Assembly: GCA_902806055.1 (NCBI GenBank)
Contig: CADCVD010000074.1
Location: 1-37,214 of the forward strand
Length of the DNA: 37,214 nt
Reading direction: 5' to 3'
From: an uncultured Rubrobacteraceae bacterium
Lineage (GTDB): Bacteria; Actinomycetota; Rubrobacteria; Rubrobacterales; Rubrobacteraceae
Shown: piece after piece, positions 30,849 through 33,924 of the stretch
Layout of the letters: each line of letters starts with the position of its first letter
How positions within the stretch are numbered: position 1 is the first letter of the stretch
Notes under the pieces: model-generated
Seen by the model: only the letters and a program-made list of their open reading frames with translations
What the model was told of the DNA's origin: nothing
The model's database searches: none
Made by a program: the position numbers and the translations under genes

Positions 30849-31018
30849 CGGCGCGGGCGCCTAAAACTAATGTCGCTTCCGGTTCGTGACGTCGTTCTGC
30901 AATTCTTTTTGTCTGTATTACCCTGTACGCGGACCGAGTGCTTTATCGGGGCGTGTCCCAGCTGCTTCCTGCAGGTATAGTTTGTCATGAGGACAAGCTT
31001 CGGGAGGGAGTAGGAATC

Positions 31019-32614
31019 ATGACGACGGTACGCGATGCGACCTTCGAGCTGCTGCGTGATCTTGGGATGACCACGGTGTTCGGCAACCCTGGCTCTACGG
31101 AGCTACCTTTCTTGAAGGATTTTCCGGACGACTTCCGCTACATCCTGGGGTTGCAGGAGGCGACCGTGTTGGGGATGGCCGACGGGTACGCGCAGGGGAC
31201 GGGAAAGGCGGCTCTGGTCAACCTGCATACGGGGCCAGGCCTGGGCAACGCGATGGGGGCGATGGTTACCGCCTGGCACAACCGTACGCCGCTGGTTGTG
31301 ACCGCCGGTCAGCAGGACCGTAGGCACATCTCGCTGGATCCCATGTTGAGCGGCAAACTCGTCGAGCTTGCACAGCCGTATGTAAAGCGGAGCTACGAGC
31401 CGTACAGGGCTGAGGACGTACCGCGAGAGATGCTTCGTGCCTACCATCTCGCCATGCACGCTCCGCGTGGCCCGGTCTTTCTCGGGATTCCGATGGATGA
31501 CTGGGACAAGGAGGGAGAGAAGCCTCCCGATCACGAGGTCTTTCACGAGCCCGCCCCCGACCCTAAAGGACTCGAAAAGTTCGCGGAGGTGCTCGCGGGA
31601 GCGGAGAGACCGGCGGTCGTGGCCGGGGCCTGGGTAGACCGGAAGGGTGCCTTCTACGACACGGTCGCGCTCGCCGAGAGGTTGAACGCGGCCGTCTGGG
31701 AGGCCCCGCTCGCCTCCAGGGCGGGCTTCCCGCAGGATCATCCCCTCTTTCAGGGTAGCCTGGCCCCGGCTCAGAAGCAGGTCTCGGAGCAGCTATCGGA
31801 CTATGATGTCGTCCTCGTCCTCGGTGCTCCGGTGTTTCTCTATTACCCCTATGTCCCCGGCCCCGTCGTCAAAGAGGGTACACAGGTGCTCCAGATCACT
31901 GGCGACCCGGATAAGGCTACCCGCGCCGCCCTCGGGACGAGCCTGTTCGGGAACGTGGCGTACTCCGTGCGCCGGCTCATAGAGCTACTGCCGGAGGACC
32001 CGGGCCGCCCCGCCCCGCCCGAGCGCGAGGCGCCGCCCGTCCCGGAGGCCGCAACGCCGATACCTCCCGCTTACCTCATGCATGTACTCGCGGAGGCGAT
32101 GCCGGAGGGGACTGCGTTCTTCGAGGAGTCGGGGTCTTCCAGGGGGACGTTCCACGAGCACGTGAGGCCCGGCTGGCCTGGCGCCTACTTTAACGCCGCC
32201 TCGGGAGGTTTGGGCTACGCGATGCCCGCCGCCGTCGGGTACAAGCTCGCGCAGCCAGAGACGCCGGTCGTCTGCCTGATCGGGGACGGCTCCAGCATGT
32301 ATTCTATTCAGGCTCTCTGGACCGCCGCTCGCTACGGCGCGAACGTTGTCTTCGTAATCGTTGACAACAGCGGCTACTACATCCTCAAGGGCTTCCGTGA
32401 CGCCATCGGTATAGGTGATACCGTCCCCGGGCTCGACGTTCCCGGCCTCGACCTCGTCAAGGTTGCCGAGGGCATGGGCGTCCGGGGCGAACAGATCGAG
32501 AAGCCTGACGACCTCAAGTCTGCCCTCAAGCGCGGCCTGGCCGCGAGATGGCCCTACATCATCAACGTCGCCGTAGAACCAGAGGTGCCCCAAATCCCTA
32601 GCGTCCCGGATTAA
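31019..32614 (+). CDS. mdlC: benzoylformate decarboxylase (ThDP-dependent enzyme)
   Basis: TVRDATFELLRDLGMTTVFGNPGSTELPFLKDFPDDFRYILGLQEATVLGMADGYAQGTGK...VVCLIGDGSSMYSIQALWTAARYGANVVFVIVDNSGYYILKGF; start ATG 31019 preceded by gggaggga. Confidence 0.9.
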   Translation: MTTVRDATFELLRDLGMTTVFGNPGSTELPFLKDFPDDFRYILGLQEATVLGMADGYAQGTGKAALVNLHTGPGLGNAMGAMVTAWHNRTPLVVTAGQQDRRHISLDPMLSGKLVELAQPYVKRSYEPYRAEDVPREMLRAYHLAMHAPRGPVFLGIPMDDWDKEGEKPPDHEVFHEPAPDPKGLEKFAEVLAGAERPAVVAGAWVDRKGAFYDTVALAERLNAAVWEAPLASRAGFPQDHPLFQGSLAPAQKQVSEQLSDYDVVLVLGAPVFLYYPYVPGPVVKEGTQVLQITGDPDKATRAALGTSLFGNVAYSVRRLIELLPEDPGRPAPPEREAPPVPEAATPIPPAYLMHVLAEAMPEGTAFFEESGSSRGTFHEHVRPGWPGAYFNAASGGLGYAMPAAVGYKLAQPETPVVCLIGDGSSMYSIQALWTAARYGANVVFVIVDNSGYYILKGFRDAIGIGDTVPGLDVPGLDLVKVAEGMGVRGEQIEKPDDLKSALKRGLAARWPYIINVAVEPEVPQIPSVPD

Positions 32615-33000: not shown

Positions 33001-33747
33001 CTACGAGCTCTGCTCACCTTCACGGGTCTTTTTAATCTGGCCCTGATACTCCTTGACCATCCGCTGGTAGCGGTCGACTTCCTTGAAGGCGTCCCTGTCT
33101 TTGAGCTCTCCGAAACGGCGCTTGAGGGCGACCGTAGTGAAGAAGATGCCCCGATAGTAGGGAATTAGATGCTCCAGTGGCATCGCCGGTCTCTCTGGCC
33201 TGACCGTCGATGACTCGGCCTCGTCAGCGGTAGCCCTTATCTCCGGCTCCTCGACGCTGCCGCTCTCGCTAGCCTCTGGTATCTCTTCGAGGGCGGCAAA
33301 AACCTCCTCGTCGCCGGGTCTATCGGCGAAATCTCTTCCCGCGTAGAGGTAGCGGACGATGCCCTCGCGATCCAAGACCACGATAGCCGGTATAGCGACG
33401 CTCTCTTCAGCGTTCCACAGGTCGCAGCGCTTTGCGAGTTCGCCCTTAGGGTCGCTCAACAGCGGGAAGGGGAGGGAGAGCTTCTCGACCATGTCCTTGT
33501 TGTGCGTGGGCGGGTCCACGTTTACGCCCGCGATCCTCGTACCACGCTTCTCGAATTCCTCGTACTTCCTGGCGTAGCTGACCAGCTGCCCGTTGCAATA
33601 CGGTCACCAGTCGCCCCGGTAGAAGACAAGGATTATCGGACCCTCTCGAAGCTGCTCCGCCAGGTTAAAGGGACGGCCTTCCTGGTCGGGCAACTCGAAG
33701 TTCGGTATCCGTCGGCCGACCTCTGTACCACTGCTCGTCTCGGTCAT
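33001..33747 (-). CDS. peroxiredoxin (AhpC/TSA-like), candidate selenoprotein with in-frame UGA at the peroxidatic Cys position
   Basis: ATG at 33747 with GGAGGAGGAG upstream. Translation: MTETSSGTEVGRRIPNFELPDQEGRPFNLAEQLREGPIILVFYRGDW[TGA]PYCNGQLVSYARKYEEFEKRGTRIAGVNVDPPTHNKDMVEKLSLPFPLLSDPKGELAKRCDLWNAEESVAIPAIVVLDREGIVRYLY..., 249 codons including the final TAG. Single TGA (33604-33606, codon 48), otherwise one uninterrupted frame. Track ORF 33001..33519 is only its 3' part. Confidence 0.8.
33571..33606 (-). promoter_or_regulatory. putative bacterial SECIS element following the in-frame UGA
   Basis: RNA-sense: UGA-CCGUAUUGCAACG-GGC-AGCU-[GGUC]-AGCU-AC-GCC. 7 bp stem (AGCU/AGCU and GGC/GCC) with a 2-nt bulge, GGUC apical loop 20 nt after the UGA. 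Confidence 0.6.
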
Positions 33748-33924
33748 GCGCTCCTCCTCCAACAGCTTTCTTAAAGAAACAGTTTACCCTTCCTCATACG
33801 ACCTCAAGCCGGGTCATCCTCCAACGACAGGTGAGGCGAGGCTGCCGGTCGGTTAACATTGTGCTCTATAGGATAGGTGAAGAGGAGACAAGGAGGGGTG
33901 TTCGACCGAAGTAAGAGGATCTAT

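Follow-up and report, generated by a model that had tools for sequence, protein, structure and literature searches.

A predicted selenocysteine-containing UxxC peroxiredoxin-like oxidoreductase gene in an uncultured Rubrobacteraceae bacterium

The window analysed here is a stretch of 37,214 nucleotides from the draft genome of an uncultured Rubrobacteraceae bacterium. On its minus strand, 248 codons lie in a single frame from an ATG at 33747 to a TAG at 33001-33003, with a Shine-Dalgarno-like sequence before the ATG and in-frame stops further upstream (Table 1). Re-reading all 248 codons confirmed the original prediction that this frame is continuous and interrupted by one TGA only, at codon 48. 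The Pfam AhpC-TSA model matches residues 10-133 as one domain across the TGA (121.8 bits). The standard ORF list, as the prediction had also noted, keeps only 33001-33519 (172 aa, GTG start), and thereby loses the active site and with it the catalytic half of the protein. The Cys three residues after the TGA is invariant among 21 aligned orthologs, in line with the predicted U-x-x-C motif with a retained partner Cys.

The gene converges with a gene for a thiamine-pyrophosphate enzyme, an arrangement common only to the nearest relatives among those examined. No operon partner was found when the neighbourhood was compared with that of relatives, and the gene stands alone; a plasmid DNA search gave no matches.

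Table 1. Features of the locus (positions in the window)
Feature	Position	Strand	Basis or remark
Thiamine-pyrophosphate enzyme (benzoylformate decarboxylase-like), convergent neighbour	30938..32614	+	Likewise convergent in nearest relatives
Predicted Sec-type gene (UxxC Prx-like thiol/disulfide oxidoreductase), 248 aa with TGA as Sec	33001..33747	-	Intact frame; Pfam AhpC-TSA on both sides of TGA
C-terminal extension, about residues 158-248 (~90 residues), mainly two long helices	33004..33276	-	AlphaFold2 model
CCG, P120, invariant Pro where peroxiredoxins have the catalytic Arg	33388..33390	-	Ortholog and peroxiredoxin alignments
Predicted SECIS upper stem-loop, GGCAGCU-GGUC-AGCUACGCC	33571..33590 (loop 33580-33583)	-	Folding; criteria of PMC13188914
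TGC, C51, partner of U48 in U-x-x-C	33595..33597	-	Invariant in 21 aligned orthologs; aligns with peroxidatic Cys of peroxiredoxins
In-frame TGA, codon 48, U48 (predicted Sec)	33604..33606	-	Context FYRGDW-TGA-PYCNGQL; sole internal stop
Shine-Dalgarno-like GGAGGAGGAG, 5' of ATG	33751..33760	-	Sequence

The prediction of a selenoprotein pointed to orthologs with TGA or a Cys codon at position 48, and both were found. A search of 61 genomes (the focal genome and 60 relatives) yielded 18 further genomes whose long homologous frame holds a single TGA, and others in which it is open throughout. A second search covered 84,980 named species genomes with the patterns PYCNGQL[VA] and LVFYRGDW, which leave codon 48 outside, and returned 80 loci. 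When the two collections were pooled into 110 aligned loci (some genomes occur in both, and duplicates are included), codon 48 was TGA in 86. In the remainder, where TGC predominates, it was TGC or TGT (19 loci), GAC (2), TCC (2) or TCG (1), and thus encoded Cys, Ser or Asp and in no case Trp. The recurrence of TGA in 86 of the 110 loci, seen although the patterns are blind to codon 48, excludes a chance TGA. The named relatives of the gene belong to Rubrobacter and other Rubrobacteraceae. Outside Rubrobacteraceae, Sec is encoded in loci of Acidimicrobiia, Euzebyaceae, Actinomycetospora, Chloroflexota, Thermomicrobiota (Thermomicrobiales) and Myxococcota, and in single bins of Armatimonadota and Acidobacteriota.

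On a tree of the 87 rows left after removal of duplicates (70 Sec, 14 Cys, 2 Ser, 1 Asp), the state of codon 48 changes 7 times, compared with 16.2 times in shuffles. The Cys, Ser and Asp forms of Rubrobacteraceae nest within Sec forms, which indicates that Sec was lost in this family; inspection of the tree suggests that this probably happened at least twice.

Several individual loci deserve description. Two entries of Rubrobacter LC3_4 (L027 and L062, genome G020) carry Asp (GAC) in place of Sec, reading FYRGDW-D-PYC, and their genome has no tRNA-Sec over the cut-off. Codon 48 is TCC, with Ser for Sec, in L061 and L037; the latter has also lost C51 (AYD), so that the whole redox pair is absent from a frame that is still open. 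The Rubrobacter CP_BM_ER_31 locus (L038/L113, genome G003) has a 12-bp tandem duplication that doubles the Sec codon (GDW-U-PDW-U-PDC), and a TAG further on breaks the frame, making this a decayed copy. In Rubrobacter marinus (L064/G064) the match falls into two frames past residue ~191, the C-terminal extension being frameshifted in this isolate; its genome appears to be identical with G002, as tRNA-Sec has the same coordinates in both.

To compare selection on the two sides of the TGA, as the original prediction had proposed, the focal gene was set against nine relatives. Values of dN were 0.14-0.34 before the TGA and 0.10-0.28 after it, dS was higher on both sides, and dN/dS was mostly well below 1 before and after alike. 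Selection is thus similar on the two sides, and the comparison with these nine relatives gave no sign of relaxed constraint 3' of the TGA.

The source genome is a 3.15 Mb draft (91.8% complete, 5.1% contamination) in which the gene lies on contig C74. All components of the Sec machinery whose presence the prediction had left to be checked were found. A tRNA-Sec with anticodon UCA (65.6 bits) lies on contig C30, adjoined by SelB and, past SelB, by the C-terminal part of SelA, in a single cluster on a different contig from the TGA gene; selA is broken by a run of N and hence read only in part. Two near-identical copies of selD (L041 and L042, on contigs C109 and C188), probably the product of a strain mixture in the bin, each carry a TGA at the Sec site (KYSTKAGU), and a formate dehydrogenase alpha-like gene (L126, contig C123) carries an in-frame TGA where Sec canonically lies (NQARIUH). 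By prediction, therefore, this genome decodes UGA as Sec in no fewer than three gene families.

Relatives G016 and G027, each consisting of a single contig, have the TGA gene and tRNA-Sec together on it, and G002, with two contigs, has both on its main one, which makes a binning error a poor explanation for the pairing. Four of the 19 TGA carriers among Rubrobacteraceae relatives show no tRNA-Sec, and three of these four genomes are <83% complete. Since tRNA-Sec exceeds the cut-off in 30 of 40 genomes within the family, its relation to TGA status is uninformative there. Among the named genomes, tRNA-Sec is present in 21/24 TGA carriers compared with 4/9 others (Fisher p 0.02, kinship ignored).

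These data bear on two alternatives to selenocysteine. A pseudogene whose active-site codon has mutated to a stop would find parallels in the decayed copy of G003 and in the late frameshift of the R. marinus gene. However, the conservation of TGA at codon 48, in 86 loci from several phyla, makes this explanation very unlikely; the low dN/dS downstream and the presence of Sec machinery and other Sec genes in the genome speak against it as well, and we give it hardly any weight. The second alternative, that UGA is decoded as another residue (Trp or Cys) through a changed code or near-cognate readthrough, has nothing specific in its favour, although Trp readthrough would likewise keep the frame. 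Against it, TGA is the normal stop of other long ORFs in the window, which argues against a code with UGA as Trp, and some orthologs of the gene themselves end in TGA; codon 48 is never Trp where it is not TGA, and a tRNA-Sec is present. We consider this decoding exceedingly improbable. Rather, the gene is very probably a selenoprotein gene and not a pseudogene, a reading drawn from comparative sequence data; the prediction of a selenoprotein in place of a broken gene is thus upheld by the TGA in 86/110 loci, the Sec machinery and the selection maintained after the TGA.

Just downstream of the UGA, a predicted hairpin with a 7-bp stem and a bulge presents a GGUC loop 20 nt from the UGA. Published limits for bacterial SECIS elements place a loop of 3-9 nt with an early G at 16-37 nt from the UGA (PMC13188914), and the focal hairpin lies within them for distance, loop size and early G. 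Its energy is -12.7 for the 54-nt fold; the local piece of 22 nt reaches -7.4 kcal/mol, borderline against the published limit of -7.5. Compared with shuffles that preserve protein sequence and codon usage, the hairpin of the focal gene alone is unexceptional (p about 0.22). Over the TGA loci, however, the best hairpin averages -8.85 kcal/mol compared with -5.84 in shuffles, and over the non-TGA loci -3.67 compared with -4.06. The SECIS signal is strong across the set of TGA loci only, and not in the focal gene singly.

The hairpin coincides with a pattern in codons 55-56. Among the TGA loci these are CUN-Val in 50, UUG-Ala in 16, CUN-Gly in 4 and UUG-Val in 1, the last two combinations being confined to distant forms; CUN-Ala does not occur there and is found in 8 of the non-TGA loci. 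The UUG-GCC loci have an alternative hairpin, typically GGCC-AGUU-GGCC, with its loop 16 nt from the UGA. This second register, with Ala instead of Val at 56, was observed in Acidimicrobiia and Thermomicrobiales (for example L069, L071, L072, L078, L099, L103, L104, L106 and L108). Among carriers of Ala56, TTG precedes it in 16/16 TGA loci compared with 2/10 non-TGA loci (Fisher p 2.9e-5, kinship ignored); a tree-aware test of SECIS and Sec rests on 3-4 independent changes, too few for significance.

The AlphaFold2 model of the protein (pLDDT 84.3) has a peroxiredoxin-like core, and Foldseek matches it to AhpE and Bcp with target-normalised TM-scores of about 0.87-0.90. The original prediction had placed Sec at the peroxidatic Cys. 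Alignment to solved peroxiredoxins does not support this assignment: U48 is matched with the Thr of PxxxTxxC and C51 with the peroxidatic Cys, while R44 stands at the motif Pro and P120 at the catalytic Arg (R116 of AhpE, the residue mutated in structure entry 4xih). R44, like C51 and P120, is invariant in the 21 aligned orthologs. With R44 for Pro, U48 for Thr and P120 for Arg, the classical site, PxxxT(S)xx(C/U) plus catalytic Arg, is absent from the alignments except for C51, and what is left are thioredoxin-type UxxC features. In the model, U48-C51 sits at the start of helix 49-60, and P120 is, from its place in the alignment, probably a thioredoxin-type cis-Pro. The C-terminal extension matches no Pfam family, and no membrane anchor or signal is evident in the sequence.

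The PrxU-type label attached to the gene by the prediction is likewise not supported. A TxxU-type Sec peroxiredoxin, with Sec as the peroxidatic residue and a peroxiredoxin mechanism, would share the fold and Pfam family, and a UxxC protein could still reduce peroxide. However, the four aligned positions just described speak against it, and the NCBIfam model of PrxU (NF040737) scores 39.7 bits, under its cut-off of 270; we regard a PrxU-type enzyme as improbable.

In our preferred account, which we hold with high confidence, the gene encodes a selenoprotein in which UGA48 is decoded through SelB, tRNA-Sec(UCA) and a SECIS element, and a thioredoxin-type W-U-P-Y-C site is carried on a peroxiredoxin-like fold. 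SelB and tRNA-Sec(UCA) would insert selenocysteine at UGA48, a step with strong comparative support, probably aided by the hairpin just 3' of it. The modelled product would adopt a peroxiredoxin-like thioredoxin fold with W-U-P-Y-C opening helix 49-60. The U48 selenolate may then act as the nucleophile on a disulfide, possibly also on a hydroperoxide, after which a U48-C51 selenenylsulfide would form and be reduced back by the cellular thiol system. For the helical extension, a role in binding a partner or in oligomerisation is probable, although this is a guess.

Standard ORF calling removes the active site of the focal gene and, by the same logic, would do so in no fewer than 70 distinct homologs, of which many come from soil and desert lineages rarely regarded as selenium users. 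The family adds a broad branch of redox selenoproteins, shows Sec giving way to Cys (also to Ser or Asp) inside a single family, and supplies clean material for examining the constraint that a SECIS hairpin places on protein sequence. We further propose, with chances that we judge evenly balanced, that it forms a large unnamed subfamily, found mainly in Actinomycetota and Chloroflexota, in which a Prx-like UxxC core is joined to a new helical C-terminal domain and the protein is under constraint from the SECIS loop. Sec genes would keep either Leu-Val, mostly as CUG-GUC with a GGUC loop 20 nt from the UGA, or Leu-Ala, as UUG-GCC with an AGUU loop 16 nt from it, and CUN-GCN without the G-U loop would be allowed after Sec has been replaced by Cys, Ser or Asp.

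Among known systems, AhpE of Mycobacterium tuberculosis and archaeal Bcp, both of solved structure, have the core fold in common with the focal protein; unlike it, they carry the classical PxxxTxxC plus Arg site and have neither Sec nor the C-terminal extension. PrxU resembles the focal protein in fold, AhpC/TSA domain and an active-site Sec, but the focal Sec lies three residues earlier and the peroxiredoxin Pro, Thr and Arg are replaced. The SelL-related redox protein (NF040769) has a weakly similar AhpC/TSA-like redox domain; it is UxxU, in contrast to Sec-x-x-Cys here, and its model scores 49.6 bits, far below the cut-off of 120. ResA/TlpA thiol-disulfide oxidoreductases combine a CxxC site with a Pro at the cis-Pro position, as the focal protein combines UxxC with P120; the ResA model scores 44.6 bits, below its cut-off of 170. 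No NCBIfam model reached its cut-off against the focal protein.

The closest description is that of the Prx-like UxxC/UxxU oxidoreductase selenoproteins of PF00578, in which an AhpC/TSA-type domain carries a thioredoxin-like UxxC instead of TxxU (PMC1088965; PMC1794560; PMC13188914, matched by description in their available text). Such UxxC proteins have been on record since 2005-2006, and the same available text distinguishes them from TxxU peroxiredoxins (PMC1088965, PMC1794560). The focal protein likewise has an AhpC/TSA (PF00578) domain with UxxC replacing TxxU, and the gene is a member of this known kind, in a branch missed by every curated NCBIfam model. It probably represents an unnamed subfamily, which may overlap with the five selenoproteins that the available text of a 2006 paper credits to R. 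xylanophilus (PMC1794560). Compared with the published UxxC proteins, the focal one adds the ~90-residue helical C-terminal extension, and its branch is broadly spread in Actinomycetota and Chloroflexota.
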